Assembly (NCBI RefSeq): GCF_008831285.2
Contig: NC_045142.1
Location: 1,617,001 to 1,681,000, forward strand
Length of the DNA stretch: 64,000 nt
Reading direction: 5' to 3'
From: Nymphaea colorata
Lineage: Eukaryota; Streptophyta; Magnoliopsida; Nymphaeales; Nymphaeaceae
The notes beneath the pieces are model-generated. The model was not told where the DNA came from and made no database searches. It was given only the letters and a program-made list of their open reading frames with translations. The translations under genes and the position numbers were made by a program. This document shows, piece after piece, positions 6,001 through 52,034 of the stretch. Position 1 is the stretch's first letter. Each line of letters begins with the position of its first letter.

Positions 6001-9000
6001 TTCCGCTGGCACAACGACAACGACCGTTGCTAGTAGCTTCTTTGCTTGAGCATAAGGCTTTTTGGTTGCTTATCAGCCTTCTTTCCTGCTCCCTACGGCT
6101 ATTCTTTTATCTCTTTGGCCACAGGGAAGAAGACCAAAACCGATCTTCTGCTTCGGACCTGACCTTTCAATAAGATCACTAATTCAGGTACAAACAAATA
6201 CCATTAGTACTCACTGTACAAACAAATGTCATGCAAGCCTTAAAAAGAAAAAGGCCTTTGGGCTGCCATCTCTCTCCGAGTAAAGCTGAGAAAAACTGTC
6301 AACCCCTGAGGTGTTGATCACTCGACCCTGCTGGTACAACAAAGTTTAGGGACAGACAGTCAGGAGGGACGCTCATATATAACATTCAATTCTAGATGCC
6401 GCACAAAAGGTTATTCATATTATATACATAAAAAAGAAACAAGAACTTGTTGTGGTAACTGTGGTATGAACAGTTTGTTTCACAATTTGCAACTACTATT
6501 TTTCCTAAACCATGTATTTAAGAAAGTCTCCGTGCTCACTGTGTTTTTCAAAACCTTGATCGCAACTATGCATAGCATTTATGTGTTGATTGCAACATCC
6601 AACCGAAGGAGTAATACTGTTTACAACCGACGGCGATTGATGATCCAAATGGGTAGACTTGGTTCATAATTGGGAGTTTTAGGATTTCCTGCCCGGCCCG
6701 GGGCCGGACCGAGTTGCGTAAACTTTTTACTTACATTACTCGTGTTCATGTAATTTACACATGTTTGGCATCCGACACGCGGTCGAAACTTTTCGTGTGT
6801 GCCTTTTACTTTTTTGTTAAAATTTTCAACTACCCTACGTGATACCATCGAACAAAGAACAAGTTCTGAAAAAGAAAAAAAAAAAAATCTGTTATAAGGA
6901 GCATTGGACGGCTTTTCTAAAATATCAGGTTTTTTCATAATTTTCTTCAACTTGGTATCAACATTCCATGATCTAAATCATTTGGTCAATGAAATAAAAA
7001 AAAAATAGATTTCAGTAGCAGGATACAAGATTTTGGTTAACAAACTTACCAAATAAATGCCATCAGTCATGGTTGGTTATAAACTTCACCTTACGAAATC
7101 AGTCGATCATAGAGACGTTTCACCACACAACAGTAAGGAGTGCAGATAAGACCCAAGTGCGAGACAGAGATAACAAGCACACGGAAAAACAAGAGGAGGG
7201 GGAGAGAGGCAAGAAACTAAATAAGCTTAGTGAAAATAAAACCACAGTGGCCTAGTTTCTGCTGTCACAAATAAGGTCCAAATCAGGAGATAATGTATAA
7301 ACCCGTTTATCAAACAGGGAAGTTGAGATTTTTTGTTGACTTTGGCTATAAAAGAACTCATACTAACATTATGAGCAAGGACCCAAAAAATGTCATCACC
7401 CAAACACGACAGATAGTCAGAACAGCAACTACTTCAGCCCCTAATCTGGTATAGGTTTGCCTAAACCAACCTTGTCAATCAAGAAAAAAGACGCTATTCT
7501 TACCAAATAATCATAGGCTGACGACCATTATTTTGAGGGTAGAGACCAGAAGGCACCTCTTTGTAACTGGATTTACAATCTGAAAGTATGGTTTCCCGGA
7601 AATCGGCATGATTTAGTCAATTTTGGAAGCCACAAACTGTGGAGGCATGTGCTTAGGAAAACCCACAACAGCAACTCCAGCTGACAGCCGAATGCACAAT
7701 AAAAAGCTGTGAAAATGCCAATATCATCGCCAACAAAGCTAAACTTCATCTACAAGTCGCCCTCACTAGCTGACTTTTCTTGTCACTTCAATTTCTGAAT
7801 ATATACGTAAACCATATGAATTAAGAAACTGTGCATGGTTTGTTAGGAAAAGCAGGTAAGATCATTTAATTTTACCAAAACTACTCTTCAAGTATTGTCA
7901 ATCAGCCAGCTCGATATTTTATAAGTAATGGAATATGGACTCCTCACTTGGTGGTAGCCTTCTGTTGACACAATTGACCTGTACCAAACAAGCAGGGACC
8001 AATCAATCAGTCCCTGATTAAGTTCATTACATAACTTGTTACTGCAAGAGGAAAAGTAGTGGCTTGGCCTATTTACAATATGATCCACCTTCAAAAGTAA
8101 CTGCACTTGATAAAAAACTGCCGCCTCAAAGGAAATGTAATATTGTAATCATTTAAGCCAGCTGGATGTTGGCAACTGGTTACCATTTGCTCATAGAGGT
8201 TTCTGCTGTACAAGGATGAGTTTCTTTGATAAGAAATAGAGACCTCTTGCTGAGATTAATTTGATCACAGGAGCATCTGCTATTATCGAGTTAAGTTACC
8301 AAGATTTTCCATATCAGGAGTGTAATTCAAACAGTGAATGCAAAGGTTAAGGACAATGAGATGATTATACCATTGAGCCATACAATGCAGTAGATGTATC
8401 CCGCTATAAGAACAGAATGCAGGAATAGATATTTAGCAACACGGAGTAACCTTATTAGCACAAATTAGACAAACCATTTGCAACTGGAAGGTTTCAAAGA
8501 CCCAACCCATGCCCCTCTCTTTGATGCTCATTCTTTCAGTCACTCCAACCCATCACAAAAAGATTGCAACCAAAGTAGGAGCAAAGCAATCACCAAGGTG
8601 AGCCAACAGTTACATACATTTGAGACAAAGTTTATGTTAAATGTATAGAATTTTGTATACAGACAGATCCAAATGAGCCAAGCTGAACAGCCCTTGTTCC
8701 GCTCAGCTTCTGTATACTTGTGTACTCTCTCATTGCAAGCTTTATGGAAGCAACACTGATGGAGCTGAGCTCAAGAGCAGCTTCTCTCACATGGACTTAC
8801 TAAGATAAGAAAAAAAAAACAGTAATTTGCAGAAAGAATCCCTATAAACAGGAGACAATGATAAGGACTACGTCACACCATTAGGAGCACAGATAGGATT
8901 GGGAACAATGATGCAAGACGGTCACCTACAGGAATCACATAGTCCACATGGCAAACCTGCCGGCAGTACCTGCTTGCGTTAGTCCACCTTTCTATTTAGT

Positions 9001-12044: not shown

Positions 12045-12284
12045 TGTAGAAACAAAATGTGCACGAGAGTAGAAGAAAGCACACAGATGTAACGTGGAAA
12101 ACCCTCGACTCGAGGGAAGAAAAACCACGGGTGAGGAGGTCTGGTGCCCACTAGCCTCCAGACACTCTCTCTCTTCAACACTTCATTAACTCAAAGATTA
12201 GGGTTTACAGAAGTATAAGTAGTCCTAATTAGGACAAACCGGATCGGGTACGGATCCGGACCCGAATAACAAAACCCGTCAACA
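12045..12284 (-). repeat. 3' LTR of the copia element
   Basis: 240 bp, TG..CA ended, with no difference visible from the copy at 17,133-17,372. It contains the 14-bp palindrome GTCCTAATTAGGAC and, read on the minus strand, a possible TATA-like stretch (CTTATACTTC). The gag-pol stop codon lies inside its first six bases. Confidence 0.97.
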
Positions 12285-15200
12285 CTCCCCCTCAAGTTGG
12301 GCATACATATCAAACATGCCCAACTTGGATACATTTCTCTCAAATGGAGTTACACTTAAGGCCTTGGTTAGGACATCAGCAGTTTGGTCTTCAGACTTCA
12401 TGTAAGGTAGCGTTAATTCCTTAGCATCAATTCTTTCTCTGATGAAGTGACGGTCGATCTCCACATGCTTTGTTCGATCATGAAGAACCGGGTTGTTAGC
12501 CAAGTTAATTGCAGACTTATTATCACAATACATCCTCATAGGCCCTTCAATCTCTATTCCAATATCTGTCAGTAAGATCTTCAGCCATAACAATTCTGAT
12601 ACCCCAGTAGCCACAGCCCTATATTCAGCCTCTGCACTCGAGCGGGAACACACATCTTGTCTCTTGCTTCTCCAAACAACCAAATTTCCCCCTAAGTAGA
12701 CGCAGTATCCTGAAGTAGATCTTCTGGTGTCAACACAGCCTGCCCAGTCTGCATCAGAATACCCTTCAACTTCAATAGATCTTTGTTGCACATATAGAAG
12801 TCCCTTTCCGGGATTCTTCTTCAAGTAGCACAAAATTCTATCTACAGCCTTCAAGTGCACATCTGTAGGTGCATGCATGAACTGGCTCATCACATTTACA
12901 GCAAATGTGATATCAGGTCTAGTCAGAGTGAGATAAATCAGTTTGCCAACTAGACGTTGATATCTCCCTTTAGCTTCTTCACCCAACAGTTCTCCATCTT
13001 TGCTACCAAGTTTATGCCCAGCATCTATAGGAGTAGAGGCTGGTCTGCATCCCAGTTTTCCTGTCTCTTTTAGTAGATCCAGGGTATACTTCCTTTGACT
13101 AAGTACAAGAGTTGTACCTGATCTAGCAATTTCAATACCCAGAAAATACTTCAGCTTACCAAGATCTTTTAGATCGAATTCAGTAGATAGTAAACCCTTT
13201 AATCTTGCTATCTCTTCCTTATCATCACCTGTAACAATCATATCATCAACATAAACCAATAGTAGAGTAACTTTACTCTCTCTTCTCTTTACAAACAGGG
13301 TATGATCTCCATTTCCTTGTTTGTAGCCATGTTTCTTCATAACAAGTCTGAGTCGTTCAAACCATGCTCGGGGAGACTGTTTCAGCCCATACAAAGCTTT
13401 CTTCAATTTACAGCATTTTCCAGGCTTCTCAAAACCTGGTGGCATGCACATGTACACTTCCTCTTCGAGATCTCCATTGAGAAAGGCATTTTTTACATCA
13501 AGTTGGCACATCTCCCAACCCTTCAGCACCGCCAATGAAATAATAACTCTAACAGTCTTCATCTTTGCAACAGGAGTAAACGTCTCTAAGTAGTCGATCC
13601 CATATTTCTGACTGAACCCCTTGGCCACCAATCGTGCTTTGTACCTTTCAATGCTACCATCTGGTTTGTACTTAACAGTGTAGACCCACTTCGACCCAAC
13701 CAAGTGGGCTGCTTCAGGAATATCAACCACCTCCCATGTCTGATTTCTGTCTAAAGCTTCCATCTCTTCTTTCATTGCATGAGACCACTTAGTGTCACCC
13801 TGAGCCTCTGTAGCATTCCTGGGAATCACAACCACAGCCAAGGAGGATACAAAACATTTATAGTCAGTGCTCAATCTAGAGTAAGATACGAAGTTACCAA
13901 TAGGGTGCTGGGTACATGACCTGACCCCCTTTCTCAAGGCAATAGGAAGATCCTCCTTTTCTTTTCCAACATCTTGCTTCTGTACACGACTTGGATCATC
14001 CAAGGAAGAAGTAGGATTGGGATTCGGTGTAACCTCCTCATCATCAATCACCTTGTCAGTACAAGCTCTTCTCCTGGAATACACCTGTCCAAACATACGA
14101 TTACCCTCTTGTTCTGTCACCAAAGGATGCTCTCCCTCCTTCTCCTGTTCATGTACATCAGTAGTCGTCCCCTCTTCATCTTTGCCATCTTCATCTTTGC
14201 CAAGCACCTTGGCAACAGGATTCTCTTCACGCCTGTAATCCATAAAGTCTGTAAACTGAATTTCCTGTGTGGGAGAATACTCTTCCTTAGACATTAATTT
14301 CTCCCCCTGAAGAGAATTCTCACCAAAATAGGAGACATGTTCCAAGAATGTGACATCTTTGGTAATGTGAAGACGACCAGTGGTAGGATCTAGACATTTA
14401 TAACCTTTTTGAGTGGAAGAATACCCAAGAAAGACGCCCTTAATAGATTTGGGATCAAGTTTTTTCACATTGGGACTGTGGTTATGTATGAAACACACAC
14501 ATCCAAAGACTCGAGGAGGAAGATGAAAAGGTTGACTACTCCCTGGAAGCATAGAGTATGGAGTACGACCCTTTAGCACACGACTGGGCATGCGATTAAT
14601 CAAGTAGACACTAGTAAGGATTGCATCACCCCAATAGTATTTTGGGAGATGTCTTTGGAACAGTATGGCTCGGGTGACATTGAGCAACTGACGATTTTTC
14701 CTCTCAGCAACCCCATTTTGAGGGGGGGTATAACTACAGGATGTCTCATGAACAATCCCCCTCTTTCGAAAGAATTCTTCAACAGTGAGACACAGATATT
14801 CACGAGCATTATCAGACCGAAAAGTCTTGACAGAATTTCCATATTGGTTTTCCACTAGGAGGATGAAAGTTTCAATAATGTGAGGCACCTCACTACGATC
14901 TTTCAACAAATACACAAAGGTACATCTTGAATAATCATCTATAAAGGTTATAAAGTATTGAAAACCACCACGAGAATGAATGCCCGAAGGCCCCCACACA
15001 TCAGAATGAACCAAGGAGAAAGCTTTATTAGAACGACTATTTGAAATTGGATAAGAAGCTCTAACATGCTTCGCAAACTGACACACATCACATGATAACA
15101 TGGAAATGTTTAAACTAGAACATAGTTCAGGGAACAAATGTTTCAAAATCCCAAATGGGAGATGACCAAGGCGTTCATGCCAAAACAAAAATAACTGACG

Positions 15201-16628
15201 ACACTCTTCCTCCTTCTTCTCTGTTCTGCTGACTGCTGACATAAGAGCTGTGACAACGCGTATAGGAAGCCGATACAGCCCATCAGACACCAAACCAATC
15301 CCAATCCTCTTCCCTGTCACCAAGTCCTGCAAAACACAACGTTTTTCAGAAAATATAAGCTCACACTTCAGTTCCTTGGTAATCTTACTAACAGATAACA
15401 AATTTAAGGGAAGATGAGGAACATGTAAGGCATCATGAACTAAAAAATTATTTAACAAGGAAAGACTCCCTTTCCCTGCCACTGAAGTAAAGGAACCATC
15501 GGCAAGGGACACACGTTCCTTTCCCGAGGATAGCTTGTAGTCATGGAAAAGCTTGGGGTTGCCAGTCATGTGATGAGTGGCACCGCTGTCAACAATCCAT
15601 TCACCCATAGAAGAAGTACCTTCTCCCCCTGAAACAGCCAATGCCTGATTGATCTTCACCTCATCTGGTGTATCTGCCTGACCAACATCAATCTTGCTCA
15701 AATATGCTCGTAGCTCACGGATCTGCTCTGCAGAAATAGAACCTTTCCCATCACTCAGACTTGTTGCAGACGATACAGGCTTCTTCCCACTCGAAGACCT
15801 CCCCCTACTATCCTTCTTCTCTGGATACAGGTCCCAACAAAAATCCCTAGTATGACCAAGTTTTTTGCAATGAGTACATTTTCGAGAAGAACGAGGAGTT
15901 CCCACAGGGGCACGGCTAACATAGGCAGACTGTTCTTCCCCCTTTCGTCCACTAGAGAGCAGCCTTCTCTGTTCTTCAGCTTCAACACGGGAATAGACAT
16001 CTTCAATACTAAATGATTCGTCAGAGTTAAGAATCTGACTCCTTATATTTTCAAAGTCATCATTCAGTCCGGATAAGAAAAGGAATACCCTGTTTTCCCA
16101 TTTATCAGTCATGTACTGCATCTGGTCGTGAGGACACCTCCATGGAATATCAGAGTGATAGTCAAGGTCCTCCCACTTAGATTTTAATGCTGCATAAAAG
16201 TCTGCAACCGAGAGAGCACCTTGTCGCAGGGAATATACATCCTTCATAAGTTGATACACACGAACTTTCCTTTTCTTTTGGCCATACATCTGCTCCAAAA
16301 TAATCCACATATCCCTTGCAGTCTTCTTACGAAGAATGAGGGGTTGGATATCCGGGGACACTGAATTGACAATCCAGGTTTTGACCTGGTTGTCTTCAAG
16401 AAACCATGTATCCCAAGCCAGACTATCTGCAGCAGGTTCAACCTTTCTCCCATTCACATAGGCAATGCGTCCTCGCCCAGCAATCCCCATGGTAATCGCA
16501 GCAGACCATCGGGAATAGTTCTCCTTGGTAAGTTGAATGGTGGTAACCTGAACCGGTACATGATCAGTCCGCGCAGACACAACATCAGGCAGAGTAGTGT
16601 TGACTGAAGAAGAAGACGAGTCAGCCAT
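12279..16628 (-). CDS. copia gag-pol polyprotein
   Basis: A 1449-residue polyprotein of an LTR retrotransposon. I start at the ATG at 16,628 (Met-Ala-Asp-Ser-Ser), because the open frame upstream of it has no ATG. Domains in order: copia gag to about residue 230; zinc knuckle CX2CX4HX4C at 251-264; aspartic protease Asp-Ser-Gly-Ala at 347-350; integrase with HHCC finger (H484, H489, C513, C516) and catalytic D543, D606, E642, the last two spaced D(35)E; reverse transcriptase about 963-1205 with YVDD at 1126-1129; RNase H with D1292, E1335 and D1369. Every catalytic motif is present and there is no frameshift or premature stop. The stop codon falls in the 3' LTR. The product would package, cleave, copy and integrate the element's RNA. 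Confidence 0.97.
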   Translation of the reverse strand: MADSSSSSVNTTLPDVVSARTDHVPVQVTTIQLTKENYSRWSAAITMGIAGRGRIAYVNGRKVEPAADSLAWDTWFLEDNQVKTWIVNSVSPDIQPLILRKKTARDMWIILEQMYGQKKRKVRVYQLMKDVYSLRQGALSVADFYAALKSKWEDLDYHSDIPWRCPHDQMQYMTDKWENRVFLFLSGLNDDFENIRSQILNSDESFSIEDVYSRVEAEEQRRLLSSGRKGEEQSAYVSRAPVGTPRSSRKCTHCKKLGHTRDFCWDLYPEKKDSRGRSSSGKKPVSSATSLSDGKGSISAEQIRELRAYLSKIDVGQADTPDEVKINQALAVSGGEGTSSMGEWIVDSGATHHMTGNPKLFHDYKLSSGKERVSLADGSFTSVAGKGSLSLLNNFLVHDALHVPHLPLNLLSVSKITKELKCELIFSEKRCVLQDLVTGKRIGIGLVSDGLYRLPIRVVTALMSAVSRTEKKEEECRQLFLFWHERLGHLPFGILKHLFPELCSSLNISMLSCDVCQFAKHVRASYPISNSRSNKAFSLVHSDVWGPSGIHSRGGFQYFITFIDDYSRCTFVYLLKDRSEVPHIIETFILLVENQYGNSVKTFRSDNAREYLCLTVEEFFRKRGIVHETSCSYTPPQNGVAERKNRQLLNVTRAILFQRHLPKYYWGDAILTSVYLINRMPSRVLKGRTPYSMLPGSSQPFHLPPRVFGCVCFIHNHSPNVKKLDPKSIKGVFLGYSSTQKGYKCLDPTTGRLHITKDVTFLEHVSYFGENSLQGEKLMSKEEYSPTQEIQFTDFMDYRREENPVAKVLGKDEDGKDEEGTTTDVHEQEKEGEHPLVTEQEGNRMFGQVYSRRRACTDKVIDDEEVTPNPNPTSSLDDPSRVQKQDVGKEKEDLPIALRKGVRSCTQHPIGNFVSYSRLSTDYKCFVSSLAVVVIPRNATEAQGDTKWSHAMKEEMEALDRNQTWEVVDIPEAAHLVGSKWVYTVKYKPDGSIERYKARLVAKGFSQKYGIDYLETFTPVAKMKTVRVIISLAVLKGWEMCQLDVKNAFLNGDLEEEVYMCMPPGFEKPGKCCKLKKALYGLKQSPRAWFERLRLVMKKHGYKQGNGDHTLFVKRRESKVTLLLVYVDDMIVTGDDKEEIARLKGLLSTEFDLKDLGKLKYFLGIEIARSGTTLVLSQRKYTLDLLKETGKLGCRPASTPIDAGHKLGSKDGELLGEEAKGRYQRLVGKLIYLTLTRPDITFAVNVMSQFMHAPTDVHLKAVDRILCYLKKNPGKGLLYVQQRSIEVEGYSDADWAGCVDTRRSTSGYCVYLGGNLVVWRSKRQDVCSRSSAEAEYRAVATGVSELLWLKILLTDIGIEIEGPMRMYCDNKSAINLANNPVLHDRTKHVEIDRHFIRERIDAKELTLPYMKSEDQTADVLTKALSVTPFERNVSKLGMFDMYAQLEGEC
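12285..12293 (-). other. polypurine tract of the copia element
   Basis: On the minus strand GAGGGGGAG abuts the 3' LTR, the expected place and composition for the plus-strand primer. The same bases encode the last residues of the polyprotein, so the tract is also coding sequence. Confidence 0.9.
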
Positions 16629-17120
16629 GATCACGAGGTAGAAGTGGCTGCCAAAGAACACACACAGCAGCAGTAACCGAGAGAAGAGGTGAGATGACGC
16701 AGTCGGGGATCAACAGCGGAAGCGGCGGGAGCTGCGGAAGCAGCAGGACACGGCGGAAGCAGAGGGCCGCGCTTGGCAGCGCGCGCCGAGAAGAGGCGAC
16801 GGCGTCGGACGTCGGCGTCGGTGGTCGGACGTCGGCGTCGGCAGAGGCGTTGGCAGAGACGTTGGCGTCGGCAGTCACGACACCAGCGACGCAGCAGCGG
16901 TCACAGCCACGGCGGGGCAGCGACGGAGGCAGTCACGCGGCCACGGTGCGGCGACAGCGGCGGTGGTCACGGTCACAGCCAGGGCAGCGGCGGCGCAGCA
17001 AGGGCAGCGGCGGCGGTGGTGGTAGCGACGGCGACGGTGGTAGCGGCGGCGGCAGTCAGGGTTGGAACTTCACAACCATAGAACAAAAAAAAACAGATTT
17101 TGTTTTCTCCAAGTCCGACG
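16629..17120 (-). other. GC-rich leader of the copia element
   Basis: The untranslated stretch between primer site and gag start, about 490 bp. From about 16,700 to 17,060 it is strongly GC-rich and built of imperfect GGC/GAC/GGT-like triplets, unlike both the LTRs and the gag-pol gene. The glycine/serine-rich frames it gives are triplet-repeat artefacts. It may be the packaging/dimerisation leader, or captured host sequence. Confidence 0.75.
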
Positions 17121-32700: not shown

Positions 32701-35208
32701 CCGATCTTTTTTCTTGTTAGTGTTTCTTCATCTGCCAGTGATTCCGAGACCATGGTTTCCTATTTCCTTTGTTATTACATTTATACATTGTATATATTTT
32801 AACCATGGAAGGTTTCATTCATAATGCAGAGAATAACTTCATGTCTGCAAGCTCGTTTGTTTCCATTGTATATGTCAATTTCTATTGTATGTTCTGTATG
32901 AGCATATTTGGATAACTTGTGTTCTCTACTGCTAGTGGTAGTGCACAGATTTTCTTTGAAATCCTGTCTAAAGTTAATGAGAGAATTCTGAAATCTGTCT
33001 TTATGCATTGTCTTTTAGACGATTGGTGCTTATTGGTATCTTCTAGCTATTGAACGTGAAGATGCATGTTGGCGTTTAGCTTGTAGTCCACAAAATTGCA
33101 AAATAGATTACTTGTACTGTGGCAATCAGAATTTGGACGGTTTTGCTGCCTGGAATAAAATAAGTCAGGGTATCTTCAACCAAAAGTGCTCTGGAGGGGA
33201 TGGTAATGATGACTTCAACTTTGGAATTTATAGTCAAGCACTGACCTCAGGCATTGTCTCATCAAGGAAGTTCCTGTCAAAGTATTGTTATTGCTTGTGG
33301 TGGGGTCTGCAGAACTTAAGGTAAGTTCTCATGTTTGAGCGCTGGTAGCATTCATGGTGGATTATTTGTGTGAGATTCAAAACTTTGCTACGTTTATAGC
33401 AGACTTTTATAAATCATGGTACTTTTGATCATCTTTTGTAACGCGATCTGATTTTATTTGTCATTCTACTTTGTCTTTGTGCATGGATAGTTATGCTTCC
33501 ATTTTCTACCGTTTGCTTGTTGATATAGTGATGATTCCATTTCTTTCGACAATTTAACTAGCACTGATTAGGCTGTCTTGTCCAGTTGTCCCAACTCCCG
33601 ACTGGCCTTGTACATGCCTTTTAGGGGTCCACTTACTGGTCTGTGATTAGCACTTTGATTCCATGGATAAATAATTTTATCATGGATATATTTATAGCTG
33701 AGTGAATGGGCAATTCTATACACTTGAAAGGAGCATGATTCTTTTAAACCTTGTGACTTGTGAGATGTTTTTGAGTTCTGAAGAACTAGTATCTCTAGCA
33801 ACTGTATCTTTAGCCCTTGGAAGCTCTGCTGTAGCATTTAAACTGTAATGTCTCAAATGTACCCTCTTTCTTTTGATGACACATTTTTGTTGGTTACGTC
33901 TTCAGCTTCAGTAAGAACGTTTGTAGGCCTGCAACATTCTACTATGCTAACTCAGTTGTTGCTTGCAGTACTCTAGGGCAGGGTCTCCAAACGAGCACCT
34001 ATATTTGGGAGGTGATATTTTCTATTGCACTTGCCATACTAGGGCTCATCTTATTTGCTCTTCTCATTGGAAACATGCAGGTACTGTCCAAATGTCTGCA
34101 ATTAGGGACACAAACATATGCATGCACAAATGGATGTACTTTCACAATGTTCATGATTTGGTTTTTCCATTTGACAGACATATCTGCAATCTCTAACAAT
34201 TCGTCTAGAAGAAATGAGAGTGAAAAGACGTGACTCAGAGCAATGGATGCATCACCGCTTGCTGCCCAAGGATCTGAGGGAGCGTGTGAGGCGGTATGAT
34301 CAATACAAGTGGCTAGAGACACGAGGAGTAGATGAGGAGAACTTGGTTCAAAGTCTTCCCAAAGACCTAAGAAGGGATATCAAGCGCCATCTTTGCCTTG
34401 CTTTAGTGAGAAGGGTGAGCATTCGCAGAACAAGCTTTCCTTTTCTACCATATTGGGATCTTATCTACATTTTGATGCATTTATTCAGGTTCCATTGTTT
34501 GAGAGCATGGATGAACGCCTGCTTGATGCTATATGTGAACGACTCAAACCAGCCCTATACACAGAAGATACTTATATTGTGAGGGAAGGAGACCCTGTGG
34601 ATGAAATGCTCTTCATTATACGTGGTCGCCTGGAGAGTGTGACAACAGATGGAGGGCGTAGTGGCTTCTTCAATCGGGGTCTGCTAAAAGAGGGAGATTT
34701 TTGCGGTGAGGAGCTTCTGACGTGGGCTCTAGATCCCAAGTCAGGCGGCAATCTTCCATCTTCTACTAGGACTGTGAAGGCACTAACAGAAGTCGAAGCC
34801 TTCGCTTTGATAGCCGACGAGTTAAAGTTTGTTGCAAGCCAATTCAGGCGCCTGCACAGTAGACAAGTCCAGCACACTTTCCGCTTCTACTCGCAGCAGT
34901 GGCGGACCTGGGCTGCCTGCTTCATCCAAGCAGCATGGCGACGCTATTCAAAGAGGAAGAATGCCGAATTCCGCCGCTTGGAAGAGGAAGAAGAAAGTAC
35001 TGCGTTTGGTGAGCTGCACAATGCTTCCGTTACAGCTGGGTCGTCGAGCCTTGGAGCAACAATCTATGCTTCCCGTTTTGCAGCAAATGCACTTCGAGGC
35101 GTTCACAGGCTAAGGAACATGAAGAGTAATGCTGGTGCCAGTGCAAGGGAGCTGGTGAAGCTACAGAAGCCACCGGAACCTGACTTTGCTCTAGAAGACA
35201 CGGATTGA
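26770..35208 (+). CDS. CNGC: cyclic nucleotide-gated channel, CNGC5/6/9 type
   Basis: A plasma-membrane, non-selective cation (Ca2+-permeable) channel of the plant CNGC family. Six exons give 726 aa: 26,770-27,366; 28,875-29,087; 33,019-33,320; 33,969-34,080; 34,178-34,414; 34,489-35,208, with GT..AG introns and frame kept throughout. The ATG is fixed by an in-frame stop at 26,725 with no acceptor between. Residues 31-75 carry the FNLEG...GMQKGSEGL...FGVSRAVFPED start typical of group II. Six membrane segments follow, with the charged S4 region in exon 2. The pore filter is Gly-Gln-Gly at 374-376. The C-linker is followed by a cyclic-nucleotide-binding domain about 488-610 with cassette GDFCGEELLTWAL, then an IQ calmodulin motif around FIQAAWRRY (633-640) and the conserved KPPEPDF near the end. 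Length and motifs are normal, so I judge it functional. Intron 2 (3.9 kb) is unusually long and repeat-rich. Confidence 0.95.
27537..27867. mobile_element. hAT-like MITE in CNGC intron 1
   Basis: 331 bp flanked by the perfect 8-bp target duplication GTTTTCAG (27,529-27,536 and 27,868-27,875). Its ends are inverted copies: it begins CTATGTCACAC and ends GTGTGACATAG. Internal repeats of GACACGG/CCGTGTC extend the inverted symmetry. It has no coding capacity. The 8-bp duplication points to mobilisation by a hAT transposase. Confidence 0.88.
29177..29192. repeat. poly-C tract
   Basis: A run of about 16 cytosines in CNGC intron 2. It would be G-rich on the other strand. It is also a likely place for sequencing length errors. 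Confidence 0.9.
30027..30108. repeat. about 47-bp duplication in CNGC intron 2
   Basis: The block CTATCTATCTCTAAAATTTC occurs twice with different short spacers, followed by GTGCGG the second time. It looks like a local slippage or element-internal repeat. Confidence 0.75.
30328..30411. repeat. AACAGAAAAAGCA minisatellite
   Basis: Three copies of AACAGAAAAAGCA with alternating GCATAACTC spacers. The minus-strand open frame here, rich in Ala-Phe-Ser-Val repeats, is a by-product. Confidence 0.8.
31460..31525. repeat. compound CT/TG/TA microsatellite
   Basis: CT dinucleotides, then a short TGTG block, then broken TA repeats, within CNGC intron 2. Confidence 0.85.
31840..31877. repeat. self-complementary (CA)n-TATATATG-(TG)n
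   Basis: A CA run, a short TA core and a TG run form an almost perfect palindrome in CNGC intron 2. It could fold as a hairpin. Confidence 0.85.
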
Positions 35209-37970: not shown

Positions 37971-38250
37971 AAAAATGGTTTTAAGTGGTAAAAAATAAAC
38001 ATACTTTAAACAAAAATGGTTTTAAGTGGCGAACAATTTACATTTGGATAAACCGGGTTCGCTTCGAGAAAACCGGGTCCCGGGTCGGCCCAACTACAAG
38101 TTGCACTACTTACACTTACACATACGTGTAAAAAATAAACATACTTTAAACAAAAATGGTTTTAAATGGCAAAAAATAAACATACTTTAAACAAAAATGG
38201 TTTTAAATGGCAAAAAATAAACATACTTTAAATAGAAATGGTTTTAAGTG
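37971..38250. repeat. 41-bp tandem repeat array
   Basis: Units contain ATGGTTTTAAATGGC and AAAAAATAAACATACTTTAA. The first stands at 37,971. After a break of unrelated GC-richer sequence (38,030-38,128), two full units and a partial one run into the left arm of the large inverted repeat. About two inverted copies stand at the matching outer end of the right arm (45,100-45,174). Confidence 0.85.
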
Positions 38251-41200
38251 GCAAAACCACATAATAAGATGCAAAAAGGAAACCCATAAACAAGAACAGC
38301 ATAATTCAAATTTCAAGTATGAGAAACCAACAAGAAATTAGTCAGAAGACAAGACGCTAAAGTTATAGGTAAACCAACATAATCAAGATGCATTAATATA
38401 AGCATTCCTAGGTCTATATTGAAACATATAGTTAATATTTAGGCATTGCTCAACCCATGCTTTGGTTACTCCTGGTGAGGGCACCAGGAACAACCGAAGC
38501 TCATACCGACAGGTCGGGTCCCATTTCACATTTCTTTTATCCAATATTTTAAAACATAGGCATGTATATCTTTCCAAATTAGCCTATCATGTGCTGTCAA
38601 AAGTTTTCATATATAAACAAGTGTTCAGATGAAGCTTTGCCCAAAACAATCTGAAGCTCTATTCTTAAGTCAAAAACGGTGAGTTGAGTTCAAGCTTGGC
38701 TACCCCAGCTTGACTTGTGCTCCAACAGCCCTAGCTCCCTCAAACACAGCTAATGTGCTCAGTTATGAATAGTAAATTGTGATTTAGATTTACATTAATA
38801 ACATTCAAGAGCTAGGTAACCCGCCACTTATTTCAGCTCCCATCTAGCAGTCAAAGAAAGTAAGTTTGTCATGTTTGGAAATTGTGAATTTCTAAAACTG
38901 TTAATTGTGAAGCATTTGAGATCGTGAAGTCTAAAACGTTCTTTGAACATATAAAGTCCAATTATCCAAGTCAATCTATGAATCTAACTAGATTTGGTTG
39001 AAAAGGTATTTGGAGATGCAATCTAGATGACTCAATAGGTCGAGAAGGAAATCATGGGAAGAAAAAATATCGAGAGACAAAATCTAGTTGGCTCAACAGA
39101 TTGCAAATGAAATCATTACTCAGTCGGTCATGTTGCCTAGAAAACATGAGTTAATTGAGGAAGCTGCTGGGTGCTTTCAACAAGAAAGAGGGAAGTCAAT
39201 CTGATGACCTTGGAGTGCCTCATAAATCCAGCAAAAAAATCTCAAATACTAATGTTAAAAAAATTGTTGATGACCATCATGGAAATCTTGTAACCAGCTC
39301 TCCTAAAATGGAGAGGATTGAGTTGAAACTCCACTATATTAAGAAGAAGCTTGTCACATGGTATGGCATGGTGGAAGTACCTTTCTGTAATTATTTTTTT
39401 CTAAACTCTATGTTAGTCTAAGCTCTAGATTGTGTAGAGGAATCACTATATAAATGGGTTGTTCAAGAAAATGGGAACTTTATTACCAGAGTGTCTTATG
39501 GTCATGTGTACTGTCCTGTCATTTCGATATTTTGATAGCGGTAACTCTGATGGATGGCCATTTATTACAATGGTGGTGTCTCCTAGAAAGTTAACCTGCT
39601 AGTCTTCAAAGAAGAGAAGCTCCACTCTTTTGTTTGACTGGTGTTTTGGACTCTTAATATGCATTCTCTCATAAAATACTTAGAATTTTTTTATTTGATA
39701 CAGTACTTTACCACATGTAGAAGACTTGAAGTGTATTGGATAAGTAAAAATTTAGACTGATAACTGTGTGTCTTTTCACTTGTGAAATTTGGGAAACATA
39801 CCTACCAAAATGTTCCTTCCCCCCAACATTGTTTTCATTTGGACTCCTGATTTGCCATGTTGCAACATGGAATCTTCAAAGGAGAATTGCAAAAACAAGC
39901 TAACAGATCAGACAAAAACTTAATAGCTTTTCTTTATTTAGTCAAAGCACAGACAGATAAATTAAATTTTGGGTGTATGAATTTCTTTTTTCTATTTTGG
40001 TAGCCTTATTGTTGTGTGAATTTCTTATAAAATTTTATAGTTTGTCGCTTCAGTGTCAAATAAAAGAATTGGGAAAAGGAAAAACAAAAAGAAAAACTGA
40101 ATATACTGCTCAACATATTCAATAAGATGCCAATGAATTTATATCGGGTATGCTTTTATTGAAAAATTGCAACAAGTTTTATCCTCACTGAACTTCTTAT
40201 TCGCTTTTAGAATCTCACAATGTATGGCTGTATTCCCAAGTTCTTCAAAATATTCCTTCAATATTTAACAGCTCCTTATATATCCTCTATTTTTCCTGCT
40301 CCTTCTTGCAGCTAAGGCATTCATTTCTGAGGAAGGTGATGTCCCAAAGGATCAACATGACAAAACAGAACTTAATTGTTCAAGACAGTTCTTCTTCAAT
40401 AGCAACCTCAGGCAGCACAACATCCACAGTGTCAGTAGAGATCTGCAGGTCCCATTTTCTTAGTGCATCTGATCTGAAATCTGGTGCAGTGACCACAAAA
40501 ACTGCTTGCAGTCTCTGCAATGGGTTATGCTGCAAACCCTAGGAAGAACCAACTGCTGATCAAGAAGTTGGACATTGGAGAGAGAGTGAACATGTGGCTC
40601 GATTCCATGAGAGCTTTGTCACCAACAAGCACCAAACCTGTTCCTCCTCTTGTAGTTGATGACAAACAGGCAGGTTCCCTTTTATCTGATTCTCTCTCTT
40701 ATAGAATGAATCGTCCAATTTGATTCCAAATCAAATTGGTAGCCAACAGGTCCAGTCTCTGATTTACCATACGATGTCATGCACTATTTATTTCTTTTCT
40801 ATTATTCTTTTTCTTTTTTAATTCTACTTTGCATCTTTTTTTATGTGCACAAGTTATTTTTTGGAGAATTCGTCAACCAATGCACCGATTTAGCAACTCA
40901 ATGTTTGGGTGAGTTGGAGAGACTCTTACTCTTTGTTCTTCTAGAGTCGCTACCAGCGAAAAACTATTGCCATTTCTGCATGTCAATGGAATTTAGATAG
41001 ACAGGGTGCAAGTAAACGTTGGGTTGCATAATTAATATGAGAAAGGGAGCCATCTGCCTGCTTAGGCATAGTGTAACATGTCAGGTCTGGCGGCATGTTA
41101 GTCCTATGTGATCGGTTCGATCGCCGTTGGCATTATTATATCCCTGAGGGAAAGTTAGAAGAGGGGAAGCTACTATACTAGTTGATATATAGCGGAGGCT

Positions 41201-41668
41201 CCACCTTAAGCCTTGGATTTCTCCATGGAGAAGGGAGAGTGAGAGGAGGGAATTTCGGCGAGTACCTGGTGTGAAAGGCACAAGAGAAGCAATGTACTAG
41301 TTGACATATAGGGTAGACTCCACCTCAAACATTGACACAGCCTTCATGGAGAAGGGAGAAAGTAGTGTGTGCTAATTGCATGGTTAATTAGCTATCCTAA
41401 GCACGTAAATATGTGAATCGTATGGATTGTTCATGAGCTCTCCCCGCCCAATCAATTTCATTAATAGCTCATACGGTGTTACCCTGAAGAGTCACTTTCC
41501 AGAGTCAAGGTACTTACTATTATTTTTCTTTTTTGCATTACACACTACTGAACTTGATTACAAGTTAAATTCATCGAAGCGTTCTTAATAGCATGGCTGA
41601 AGATCCACCCTTTATATAAGGTACGGATGTTTGCTTGTAAGCTGCATGTGCTCCGTCGCACCTGCAGA
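38175..41668 (+). repeat. left arm of a giant inverted repeat
   Basis: About 3.49 kb whose reverse complement forms 41,719-45,174. In the inner 3 kb, paired positions sum to 83,387 without drift, so there is no net length change there. By eye, inner frames are identical in both arms (for example 40,306-40,542 and 42,845-43,081). The outer 600 bases carry many substitutions and a 38-39-bp stretch, around 38,730-38,770, that the right arm lacks. Confidence 0.96.
39125..40690 (+). pseudogene. exon-like open stretches in the left arm, origin unknown
   Basis: At 39,155-39,421 an 88-codon ATG frame with a Lys/Ser-rich product, and at 40,306-40,723 overlapping frames with Ser/Thr-rich and Leu/Lys-rich segments (including ERVNMWLDSMRALSPT). 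A pyrimidine-tract CAG just before 40,312 looks like a splice acceptor and a GT after 40,670 like a donor, so this could be part of a host gene caught in the repeat. No family is recognised. No single intact gene can be built, and the same sequence is mirrored in the right arm. Confidence 0.3.
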
Positions 41669-41718
41669 AAGTAGTGGCATGTTTGTTCCAGAAGAAAAGA
41701 AACCATATACTCGGTCTA
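41669..41718. other. 50-bp unique spacer at the inverted-repeat centre
   Basis: The only non-palindromic sequence between the arms, flanked on both sides by CTGCAG. It would be the loop of a hairpin formed by either strand or by a read-through RNA. Confidence 0.95.
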
Positions 41719-44700
41719 TCTGCAGGTGCGACGGAGCACATGCAGCTTACAAGCAAACATCCGTACCTTATATAAAGGGTGGATCTTCAGCCATGCTATT
41801 AAGAACGCTTCGATGAATTTAACTTGTAATCAAGTTCAGTAGTGTGTAATGCAAAAAAGAAAAATAATAGTAAGTACCTTGACTCTGGAAAGTGACTCTT
41901 CAGGGTAACACCGTATGAGCTATTAATGAAATTGATTGGGCGGGGAGAGCTCATGAACAATCCATACGATTCACATATTTACGTGCTTAGGATAGCTAAT
42001 TAACCATGCAATTAGCACACACTACTTTCTCCCTTCTCCATGAAGGCTGTGTCAATGTTTGAGGTGGAGTCTACCCTATATGTCAACTAGTACATTGCTT
42101 CTCTTGTGCCTTTCACACCAGGTACTCGCCGAAATTCCCTCCTCTCACTCTCCCTTCTCCATGGAGAAATCCAAGGCTTAAGGTGGAGCCTCCGCTATAT
42201 ATCAACAAGTATAGTAGCTTCCCCTCTTCTAACTTTCCCTCAGGGATATAATAATGCCAACGGCGATCGAACCGATCACATAGGACTAACATGCCGCCAG
42301 ACCTGACATGTTACACTATGCCTAAGCAGGCAGATGGCTCCCTTTCTCATATTAATTATGCAACCCAACGTTTACTTGCACCCTGTCTATCTAAATTCCA
42401 TTGACATGCAGAAATGGCAATAGTTTTTCGCTGGTAGCGACTCTAGAAGAACAAAGAGTAAGAGTCTCTCCAACTCACCCAAACATTGAGTTGCTAAATC
42501 GGTGCATTGGTTGACGAATTCTCCAAAAAATAACTTGTGCACATAAAAAAAGATGCAAAGTAGAATTAAAAAAGAAAAAGAATAATAGAAAAGAAATAAA
42601 TAGTGCATGACATCGTATGGTAAATCAGAGACTGGACCTGTTGGCTACCAATTTGATTTGGAATCAAATTGGACGATTCATTCTATAAGAGAGAGAATCA
42701 GATAAAAGGGAACCTGCCTGTTTGTCATCAACTACAAGAGGAGGAACAGGTTTGGTGCTTGTTGGTGACAAAGCTCTCATGGAATCGAGCCACATGTTCA
42801 CTCTCTCTCCAATGTCCAACTTCTTGATCAGCAGTTGGTTCTTCCTAGGGTTTGCAGCATAACCCATTGCAGAGACTGCAAGCAGTTTTTGTGGTCACTG
42901 CACCAGATTTCAGATCAGATGCACTAAGAAAATGGGACCTGCAGATCTCTACTGACACTGTGGATGTTGTGCTGCCTGAGGTTGCTATTGAAGAAGAACT
43001 GTCTTGAACAATTAAGTTCTGTTTTGTCATGTTGATCCTTTGGGACATCACCTTCCTCAGAAATGAATGCCTTAGCTGCAAGAAGGAGCAGGAAAAATAG
43101 AGGATATATAAGGAGCTGTTAAATATTGAAGGAATATTTTGAAGAACTTGGGAATACAGCCATACATTGTGAGATTCTAAAAGCGAATAAGAAGTTCAGT
43201 GAGGATAAAACTTGTTGCAATTTTTCAATAAAAGCATACCCGATATAAATTCATTGGCATCTTATTGAATATGTTGAGCAGTATATTCAGTTTTTCTTTT
43301 TGTTTTTCCTTTTCCCAATTCTTTTATTTGACACTGAAGCGACAAACTATAAAATTTTATAAGAAATTCACACAACAATAAGGCTACCAAAATAGAAAAA
43401 AGAAATTCATACACCCAAAATTTAATTTATCTGTCTGTGCTTTGACTAAATAAAGAAAAGCTATTAAGTTTTTGTCTGATCTGTTAGCTTGTTTTTGCAA
43501 TTCTCCTTTGAAGATTCCATGTTGCAACATGGCAAATCAGGAGTCCAAATGAAAACAATGTTGGGGGGAAGGAACATTTTGGTAGGTATGTTTCCCAAAT
43601 TTCACAAGTGAAAAGACACACAGTTATCAGTCTAAATTTTTACTTATCCAATACACTTCAAGTCTTCTACATGTGGTAAAGTACTGTATCAAATAAAAAA
43701 ATTCTAAGTATTTTATGAGAGAATGCATATTAAGAGTCCAAAACACCAGTCAAACAAAAGAGTGGAGCTTCTCTTCTTTGAAGACTAGCAGGTTAACTTT
43801 CTAGGAGACACCACCATTGTAATAAATGGCCATCCATCAGAGTTACCGCTATCAAAATATCGAAATGACAGGACAGTACACATGACCATAAGACACTCTG
43901 GTAATAAAGTTCCCATTTTCTTGAACAACCCATTTATATAGTGATTCCTCTACACAATCTAGAGCTTAGACTAACATAGAGTTTAGAAAAAAATAATTAC
44001 AGAAAGGTACTTCCACCATGCCATACCATGTGACAAGCTTGTTCGTAATATAGTGGAGTTTCAACTCAATCCTCTCCATTTTAGGAGAGCTGGTTACAAG
44101 ATTTCCATGATGGTCATCAACAAATTTTTTAACATTAGTATTTGAGATTTTTTTGCTGGATTTATGAGGCACTCCAAGGTCATCAGATTGACTTCCCTCT
44201 TTCTTGTTGAAAGCACCCAGCAGCTTCCTCAATTAACTCATGTTTTCTAGGCAACATGACCGACTGAGTAATGATTTCATTTGCAATCTGTTGAGCCAAC
44301 TAGATTTTGTCTCTCGATATTTTTTCTTCCCATGATTTCCTTCTCGACCTATTGAGTCATCTAGATTGCATCTCCAAATACCTTTTCAACCAAATCTAGT
44401 TAGATTCATAGATTGACTTGGATAATTGGACTTTATATGTTCAAAGAACGTTTTAGACTTCACGATCTCAAATGCTTCACAATTAACAGTTTTAGAAATT
44501 CACAATTTCCAAACATGACAAACTTACTTTCTTTGACTGCTAGATGGGAGCTGAAATAAGTGGCGGGTTACCTAGCTCTTGAATGTTATTAATGTAAATC
44601 TAAATCACAATTTACATAGGGCTGTTGGAGCACAAGTCAAGCTGGGGTAGCCAAGCTTGAACTCAACTCACCGTTTTTTACTTAAGAATAGAGCTTCAGA

Positions 44701-45174
44701 TTGTTTTGGGCAAAGCTTCATCTGAACACTTGTTTATATATGAAAACTTTTGACAGCAAATGATGGCTAATTTGGAAAGATAGACATGCCTATGTTTTAA
44801 AATATTGGATAAAAGAAATGGAAAATTGGACCCGACCTGTCGGTATGAGCTTCAGTTGTTCCTGGAGCCCTCACCAAGAGTAACCAAAGCATGGGTTGAG
44901 CAATGCCTAAATATTAACTATATGTTTCAATATAGACCTAGGAATGCCTATATTAATGCATCTTGATTATGTTGGTTTACCTATAACTTTAGCGTCTTGT
45001 CTTCTGACTAATTTCTTGTTGGTTTCTCGTACTTGAAATTTGAATTATGCTGTTCTTGTTTATGGGTTTCCTTTTTGCATCTTATTATGTGGTTTTGCCA
45101 CTTAAAACCATTTCTATTTAAAGTATGTTTATTTTTTGCCATTTAAAACCATTTTTGTTTAAAGTATGTTTATT
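41719..45174 (-). repeat. right arm of the giant inverted repeat
   Basis: Reverse complement of 38,175-41,668. It has the mirrored exon-like frames on the minus strand (43,966-44,232; 42,845-43,081; 42,664-42,867). Differences from the left arm include three bases near 44,040-44,052 and one at about 42,208. The outer end stops in the 41-bp repeat motif, after which the flanks differ. Confidence 0.96.
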
Positions 45175-45290
45175 AACGTTTACACCAGTTAATCGAGTTA
45201 ATGCTTACCCAAGTTAACGTTAAACGATGCAGCACCTAAAAGAGTTAAAAAGATTAAACGAGTTGATTTCGAACTCAATTTTGTATAGTG

Positions 45291-45432
45291 AAGCCGAGCT
45301 CGAGTTTTTTTTATCCAGTCGAGCTTGACCTGGCCAAGCTCAAGCTTGCCACAAGAAGCTCGACTTGAGTTCAAGCCGAGCTCGAGTTTTTTTTTATCCA
45401 GTCGAGCTTGACCTGGCCAATCTCGAGCTTGA
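45291..45432. repeat. about 82-bp tandem duplication
   Basis: Two copies of a unit starting AAGCCGAGCTCGAGTTTTTT and including ATCCAGTCGAGCTTGACCTG. The GAGCTCGAG/CTCGAGCTTG words make it locally self-complementary. Confidence 0.85.
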
Positions 45433-45643
45433 AACAGCTAGTGTGCAGCCCTGATGATCTCAATCAATTTTTTAATTATTCTCTTCTTTGTTTTGTGATT
45501 CAATGAATTCGCACTACTCCAGCATCAAATGAAATCCCCGGGTTTAGCTCTTTCATCTTCAAGGCGTCTGCGTACTTTTGACTTAGCGCAAGGATTTAAT
45601 GCATACCGCCTTTGACCAGTTATTGACCCAACCAGCAACGTCG

Positions 45644-50840: not shown

Positions 50841-52034
50841 CTACCACCTTGAAGCGCCATTGCCATATTCGAACGCCCATGCCCCTCGCTGCCTTGAGGG
50901 CCTCGAGAATACCGAATTCTGCGACCGATTGCGGTCCCTCCGGCTTGAACTACCAGATTCCGAACTTGGTGATCGCGACGAAGAAGAAGAAGGGGAAGAT
51001 CGGAGCCTGCCGAAGAAGGAGAAGAAGTTTCTGATGGCACGTCCAATCCCAGTGTTCGGCCTCGTCCTGCTCCTTCGTGCAGTAACCCACGGTATCCGCC
51101 TTGGGGCGGCACCTGAATTAAAATCCCCATCCATTTCCGTGTATACCATCGGAAGCTCATGCTCCCCAGCACGCCGGCTGCCAGAAAACCTACCCACAGC
51201 GAATCCACCACCTGGGAGCCTCCAAATCGTCAATCCCACCGTGTCCTCCTCCTCCGGGGCATCGCTGGTCCCAAGGGCGCTCCTTACGGGCGTCTGAGCA
51301 TCCGTCGGCAGCTCGTGACGGCAAACAGGACAAGAATTGCGCAGGGAGAGCCATGGGAGGATGCAATCTGCGTGGTAGATATGCTTGCATGGCATCTCCC
51401 GAGCCTCTGAGTCGAGCTCAAACGGATCCTTGCAGACAGCACAGTGAGAATCTGTAGTGATGTGGCTAGCAACGATCTTGATCGTGGGCATCGACTCCAC
51501 CGCGCTCTTGGAAGCAGGCGGGTGCTCGCACCGGCCGACGCCGTTCGCCTCAATCTGAGCAAGCTGGTCCAGAAGGCGATCGAACCCCGAACCCATCAGA
51601 AAATCCGACATGCTTGCAGGGAGAGGGCGCAGCCCGGATCCCGCGCCGTCGTCGTAATAAAGCTCGAAACTGCCCCTCTCTGCTGCGGGGACCGTGGCGC
51701 CCTCTGCGGCTTCAGCTGGGCCGCGGAGGACGATCACTGGATTAAAAGGCGACCTCTCCCTGCCGCTTCTGTTCCTCCTCCTAAAGCCCGAACCCCGATC
51801 CGGATTCCCCGGGGACGATCGTCCAGGCGACCCAGATGCACTACTGGTACCGCTGCCTGGGCGACCGCCGAGCATGTACATCGCGGCGGGAGGCAATCGG
51901 CGCCTCCGGCCAGGACTGTCGACTTCCTCAACGAACCCTCCATCACAGTCCGGGCAGATAACGTTCTCCCTGTTCTCCACCCTAACAAATCGGTTGCATC
52001 GGTAGCACCAGTACGAGGGGTTCGGGGAAGACAT
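50841..52034 (-). CDS. RDUF: RING-H2 E3 ubiquitin ligase, RDUF1/2 type
   Basis: An intronless gene for a 397-aa ubiquitin ligase of the plant RDUF (RING + DUF1117) family, which in Arabidopsis acts in abscisic-acid and drought responses. Domains in order: N-terminal zinc ribbon with C10, C13, C27, C30; a Gly/Ser/Arg-rich linker to about 95; a conserved middle with SDFLMGSGFDRLLDQL at 143-158; RING-H2 finger with C198, C201, C216, H218, H221, C224, C235, C238 (C3H2C3 order); then DUF1117 from about 264 with VGLTIWRLPGGGFAVGRFSG. A Ser/Arg-rich tail ends in AFEYGNGASRW. All zinc ligands are present and the length is normal. It would pass ubiquitin from an E2 to protein targets in cytosol or nucleus. 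The start Met-Ser-Ser-Pro precedes the conserved zinc ribbon by the usual few residues. Confidence 0.95.
   Translation of the reverse strand: MSSPNPSYWCYRCNRFVRVENRENVICPDCDGGFVEEVDSPGRRRRLPPAAMYMLGGRPGSGTSSASGSPGRSSPGNPDRGSGFRRRNRSGRERSPFNPVIVLRGPAEAAEGATVPAAERGSFELYYDDGAGSGLRPLPASMSDFLMGSGFDRLLDQLAQIEANGVGRCEHPPASKSAVESMPTIKIVASHITTDSHCAVCKDPFELDSEAREMPCKHIYHADCILPWLSLRNSCPVCRHELPTDAQTPVRSALGTSDAPEEEDTVGLTIWRLPGGGFAVGRFSGSRRAGEHELPMVYTEMDGDFNSGAAPRRIPWVTARRSRTRPNTGIGRAIRNFFSFFGRLRSSPSSSSSRSPSSESGSSSRRDRNRSQNSVFSRPSRQRGAWAFEYGNGASRW

Follow-up and report, generated by a model that had tools for sequence, protein, structure and literature searches.

The genome assembly of Nymphaea colorata contains a palindrome of 7 kb with nearly identical arms, situated in a stretch of 64,000 nucleotides (C5:1617001-1681000) that was analysed as a whole and is called the window below. 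Is this palindrome present in the plant, how did it arise, and could it have a function? It appears to be a real structure of an already known kind, with a legible history. It is probably an inverted segmental duplication of a mosaic sequence, formed by templated, fold-back repair of a break, with inner arms that would later have become homogeneous again.

Overall structure of the palindrome

The palindrome was delimited by an inverted-repeat search and by alignment of the arms. The left arm extends from 38175 to 41671 and the right arm from 41716 to 45174 (Table 1). This bears out the giant inverted repeat with arms of about 3.5 kb that was described in the first-pass annotation, except that the spacer is 44 nt long and not 50 bp. 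The inner inverted pair (38772-41671 and 41716-44615) is 2900 bp long and has a coordinate sum of 83,387, the same as reported earlier for the mirrored coordinates. It is continued outwards by the pairs 38586-38733/44617-44764 and 38175-38584/44765-45174. At cut-offs of at least 150 bp and at least 85% identity, this palindrome is the only inverted pair in the window.

The differences between the arms were counted from a global alignment of the left arm with the right arm. In total there are 16 substitutions, one 1-bp indel and one event in which 38 nt of the left arm face a single base of the right arm. The outer part of the left arm (38175-38733) accounts for 11 of the substitutions and for the 1-bp indel. 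The 38-nt segment lies opposite base 44616, a net difference of 37 bp; in the printed alignment it appears as 37 gaps followed by a mismatch at 38771, and this mismatch was counted with the indel. The point differences noted originally are thus present, but the indel of 38-39 bp noted with them resolves into the 38-nt/1-base event (net 37) and the separate 1-bp indel, together 38. The inner 2900 bp contain five substitutions, at 39263, 39342, 39346, 41180 and 41669, and the longest run of perfect pairing between the arms is 1833 bp (39347-41179). A chance origin of the similarity is excluded at such a length.

Table 1. Positions of the palindrome and of its component pieces in the window
Feature	Position	Strand	Remarks
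41-bp minisatellite, 3.1 copies	38130-38256	+	outer end of left arm
Left arm, outer part	38175-38733	+	about 98% identical to 44617-45174
Fragment F of repeat unit	38381-39386	+	near-full-length copies 87-89% identical
38-nt segment	38734-38771	+	present in left arm and in all six aligned paralogous rows; right arm has one base, 44616
Left arm, inner part	38772-41671	+	5 substitutions in 2900 against right arm
Trehalose-phosphate phosphatase gene copy	39491-40691	+	compared with C5:775524-776761
C1-like piece	41224-41565	+	C1:12.364-12.366 Mb; 91% identity over about 206 bp, with two short matches besides
C7-like piece, left-arm tip	41613-41668	+	L009 3904-3959, 100% over 56 bp
Single-copy spacer	41672-41715	no strand	C7 matches
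Right arm, inner part	41716-44615	-	inverted-repeat search, arm alignment
Mirror copy of phosphatase gene fragment	42696-43893	-	right arm
Mirror copy of fragment F	44001-44968	-	right arm
Right arm, outer part	44617-45174	-	ends in two 41-bp minisatellite copies (45093-45174)
Dispersed element, unrelated, 5'-truncated	45175-45452	+	about 500 bp in fetched copies; outer breakpoint is the junction 45174/45175

Composition of the arms

Each arm is a mosaic of a minisatellite, a fragment (F) of a repeat unit, a fragment of a trehalose-phosphate phosphatase gene, a C1-like piece and, at the fold, C7-like pieces. The genome that was searched for these pieces comprises 407.8 Mb in 783 contigs. Dispersed elements of several chromosomes also contain motifs resembling the minisatellite, together with the adjoining left flank. 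The repeat unit to which F belongs is clustered on C5 at 1.93-2.22 Mb, about 0.3-0.6 Mb from the palindrome, and is found on C3 and elsewhere as well. In other copies the unit continues on both sides of F, showing that F is a fragment. DUF761 domains (Pfam) are present at one locus of this repeat, L018, outside F itself.

The parent of the phosphatase fragment lies 0.88 Mb away on C5 and differs from it by 55 substitutions in 1197 aligned sites. The arm carries an intron and an apparent first coding exon, which is frameshifted. At the parent locus the exon is open and has an apparent start codon, and a Trehalose_PPase domain lies downstream, with one match above the curated cut-off and one just below it. 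Because intron sequence is present in the arm, the fragment is a copy of DNA, and a retrocopy is ruled out. The matches to C7, C1 and the phosphatase gene are similarities, and the direction of copying, into the arm, is presumed. A Pfam scan of one arm in six frames found no family at E 0.1. Comparison of the arm with a phage collection gave no match, and is uninformative for a plant.

Centre and outer edges

The spacer consists of genomic sequence. Positions 41673-41706 are identical at 34 of 34 bases to C7:18613343-18613310, and positions 41707-41715 extend the match of the right arm to C7:18612970-18612903 (3971-3904 of the C7 locus L009), the identity over 41774-41707 being 98.5%. On the right-hand strand, L009 3904-3971 is followed, after a gap of about 340 missing bp, by 4311-4348, at which point the sequence reverts into the left arm at L009 3959. 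Apart from these absent bases the spacer is collinear with C7, so that arm and loop form one continuous sequence, which turns within C7-like DNA. A turn in this position would be the trace expected of fold-back or template-switch synthesis.

At the right edge the minisatellite abuts an unrelated dispersed element, which reaches 140-224 bp further upstream in all five of the copies that were fetched; 49 matches to this element were listed, the window itself among them. For one placement of the left edge, 38100-38134 and 45175-45209 have no direct repeat of at least 7 bp in common, the longest shared word being 6 bp. Since the right edge cuts another element and no direct repeat exceeds 6 bp, this edge is a breakpoint and not the end of a transposon. 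Inverted arms, a short non-palindromic centre and a plain breakpoint as the outer (right) edge are the features of an inverted segmental duplication. This origin, one of the options offered originally, is supported by the mosaic arms, the centre and the right breakpoint.

Just outside the right arm, the dispersed element contains 59 bp of sequence twice, at 95% identity (45291-45348 and 45373-45431).

Divergence along the arms

The arms fall into two classes of divergence, with 11 substitutions in 558 outer sites and 5 in 2900 inner sites (Fisher p = 3.5e-6). The inner part can be split into 3 substitutions in 615 sites within F and 2 in 2285 beyond it; the outer part compared with the F part gives p = 0.028, and the F part compared with the rest of the inner part gives p = 0.067. 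Nine of the 11 outer substitutions, counted per 250 bp, are situated within 38425-38674, so that the impression of two ages may partly reflect one odd patch. If 2.5e-9 to 1.3e-8 substitutions per site per year are taken as the rates, the ages would be roughly 0.8-4 Myr for the outer part and 0.07-0.35 Myr for the inner part.

The contrast may have been produced by gene conversion from arm to arm. It may equally have arisen in a single later round in which one arm served as the template for the inner part, with the help of an older outer inverted pair. Both processes give the same pattern and are thus indistinguishable in one genome. To our knowledge, the palindrome of the window is outside any sex chromosome and has no link to sex. 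Evidence for conversion between arms in a plant comes from the palindromes of the willow W chromosome (PMC7023750). Like the palindrome described here, these have stretches of unusually high arm identity, which are there read as gene conversion; however, they extend over 200 kb of a sex-determining region and a second species was used to test them, whereas the present palindrome spans 7 kb and conversion in it is inferred from one genome (PMC7023750).

Probable origin by break repair

The following sequence of events would account for the palindrome. A break would have been patched with the neighbouring repeat unit, the fragment of the phosphatase gene, and the C1-like and C7-like pieces. Near the C7-like tip, synthesis would then have turned back on itself and produced a reversed copy of the patchwork as far as the 41-bp minisatellite. 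The reversed copy would have been joined into the dispersed element, leaving the 44-nt single-copy loop. Finally, gene conversion between the arms, or a second copying from one arm, would have replaced the inner 2.3-2.9 kb, making the inner arms almost the same, whereas a divergence of about 2% would have persisted in the outer 0.56 kb. The anatomy, the matches to the sources, the centre with the right junction, the polarity of the arm changes and the two classes of divergence are observed; the mechanism of repair, the copying direction, the succession of steps and the homogenisation are deduced from them.

Filler DNA, the templated insertions found at double-strand breaks in plants, consists of short pieces from ectopic places at the junction. 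The palindrome resembles it in having pieces copied from ectopic places, but its patchwork is 3.5 kb long and was then duplicated in its entirety in the inverted orientation.

A possible hairpin RNA

Inverted duplications of gene pieces are a presumed starting point of new silencing hairpins and of some microRNA genes. The palindrome might be a small-RNA locus, another of the options offered originally, whose long double-stranded RNA would be cut to siRNAs of 21-24 nt directed against the phosphatase gene and the repeat cluster. We regard this as a tentative and rather doubtful possibility. It concerns function, and is compatible with an origin by break repair. A putative transcript would be self-complementary over nearly its whole length, and the RNA predicted for 41000-42387, 1388 nt long, forms a single hairpin with a folding energy of -1343.5 kcal/mol. 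However, any inverted repeat folds in this manner, and this value stands without a shuffle control at 1388 nt. Of the 21-mers in the parent stretch that spans the phosphatase exon, 145 of 329 are found exactly in the arm, the longest uninterrupted exact match being 100 nt. The phosphatase gene is a possible target of such siRNAs, although the fragment in the arm is frameshifted. The trehalose-phosphate phosphatase gene belongs to sugar signalling. No described RNA family or MIR gene reaches the Rfam gathering score in the window.

Two precedents bear on this possibility. The soybean I locus demonstrates that inverted-repeat structures of this type can silence genes (PMC3804491). Like the window, it has an inverted repeat of gene sequence and homologous target genes elsewhere; unlike the window, with its one frameshifted gene fragment, it comprises 27 kb of clustered chalcone synthase (CHS) genes whose siRNAs have been measured (PMC3804491). 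Maize Mu killer likewise arose naturally, as a partial gene duplicated in inverted orientation, and is proposed to give a hairpin RNA of about 4 kb, but it was derived from the MuDR transposon and its silencing was observed, whereas the arm of the window is a patchwork from several loci without transposon ends (PMC3440606). It is only a partial precedent, since its centre could not be sequenced and the same paper also offers a model in which shorter antisense transcripts, besides the long hairpin, are possible silencers (PMC3440606).

Possible artefacts of assembly

It is unlikely that the palindrome is absent from the plant and was created during assembly, either from a fold-back or missed-adapter read or by concatenation of two haplotypes of an inverted segment. 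The length of the spacer is close to that of the SMRTbell adapter, which we take to be 45 nt. When compared with the sequence that we assume for this adapter, the spacer has a best local score of 15.0, slightly above the average of shuffled spacers (11.2) and practically level with their 95th percentile (15.05), at the limit of what chance would give. The exact match of the spacer to C7 is a stronger argument against an adapter than this score, and a missed adapter is disfavoured on both counts.

To determine the polarity of the changes, both arms were aligned together with six paralogous rows, the sixth of which is partial. Relative to the paralogues, the left arm has private changes at 38401, 38591 and 39263 and an insertion at 38585. 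The right arm has private changes at 38483, 38522, 38527, 38566, 38671 and 39346, and has lost 38734-38771. For the differences at 38320, 38472, 38495, 38528 and 39342 the paralogues give an ambiguous or mixed picture, and those at 41180 and 41669 fall outside this alignment. Private changes on both arms fit two real copies and, taken with the genomic spacer, make a chimera of a single read unlikely. The argument against a read chimera that had been drawn from the arm differences is thereby strengthened. In addition, the right junction opens into different flanking DNA. The assembly was made with Canu, Arrow and Pilon from RSII reads of libraries of about 20 kb, and chimaeric reads were filtered, according to the assembly paper (PMC7015852). 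Near-identical arms are nevertheless difficult for data of this kind, and misassembly, including concatenated haplotypes, retains some weight.

Other palindromes in the genome

Inverted pairs at the same cut-offs were found in 12 of 41 other loci, that is at 11 distinct places, as L004 and L013 overlap. These loci (50 less the 9 that cover the palindrome region; 222,204 bases, with overlaps counted twice) had been chosen for matching parts of the palindrome region and are a biased, not a random, sample. Among them, the palindromes in L013 and L021 measure 1.6 kb and 1.8 kb in all, and none of the pairs is near 7 kb or 99.8% identity. The first-pass description of such palindromes as rare needs correction in view of the inverted pairs in this biased sample. 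The palindrome in L021 (1-1811; C5 at about 1.976-1.978 Mb) has arms that are 90% identical.

The 1.6-kb palindrome (L013 4645-6259; C5 at about 1.964 Mb) has a 19-nt centre and lies about 0.3 Mb from that of the window. Its arms are 96% identical to a 780-bp stretch, C12:15557760-15558538, from which they may come or with which they may share a source. It directly follows a related copy of the F repeat unit, and inspection of the alignment places its break within 3 nt of the F edge (39386) in the window. In the tree, the unbroken copy L020 is sister to L013 with a support of 0.98-0.99, so that the breaks in L013 and in the window look independent. The claim of a break hotspot would need more than two cases. 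The L013 palindrome has 26 differences, spread up to its centre, and thus lacks a homogenised core; homogenisation is therefore no general rule in this genome.

This shared break position is the point in favour of a broader reading, namely that the genome turns copied fragments into near-perfect hairpins at the breaks of one repeat family, and that the window holds an actively homogenised siRNA gene regulating trehalose-phosphate phosphatase. We consider this reading very unlikely. The locus displays its component pieces, its centre and one outer junction, and has a smaller parallel in L013, making the steps by which a palindrome is born and the rate at which its arms are equalised testable within one genome.

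An inverted repeat in L012, considered as a third parallel, was rejected because it consists of two aspartyl-protease (TAXi) genes arranged tail to tail (4064-5446 and 6358-7659; C5 at about 1.609-1.613 Mb). Both genes are open, the arms are 96.8% identical, and the pair adjoins another, more diverged copy of F.

Comparison with transposons and neighbouring genes

A foldback or long-terminal-inverted-repeat transposon with captured gene fragments, for example a Pack-MULE, is highly improbable: elements of this type do feature tandem repeats near their ends and fragments of captured genes, but here the right edge truncates another element, the edges given above have no target-site duplication, the arm has no transposase, which an autonomous element would carry, among its six frames, and no further full copy exists among the matches. 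The search for other genomic copies of one arm, proposed in the first-pass annotation together with the foldback option, was made with queries 38772-41671 and 40600-41725. It found the mosaic as a whole at no other place, and full-length matches to 38772-41671 and 40600-41600 were given by the two arms only; these counts are lower bounds, and the query excluded 38301-38771.

The surroundings of the palindrome include further coding regions. A long open polyprotein frame of a copia-type retrotransposon, with gag, integrase and reverse transcriptase domains, occupies 12279-16661 on the - strand. On the side of the left arm, 34393-35208 encodes a channel-like combination of a cyclic-nucleotide-binding domain with an IQ motif below threshold. 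Beyond the right arm, an open RING E3 ligase gene (RHC2A/RDUF-like, DUF1117) is situated at 50841-52034 on the - strand.
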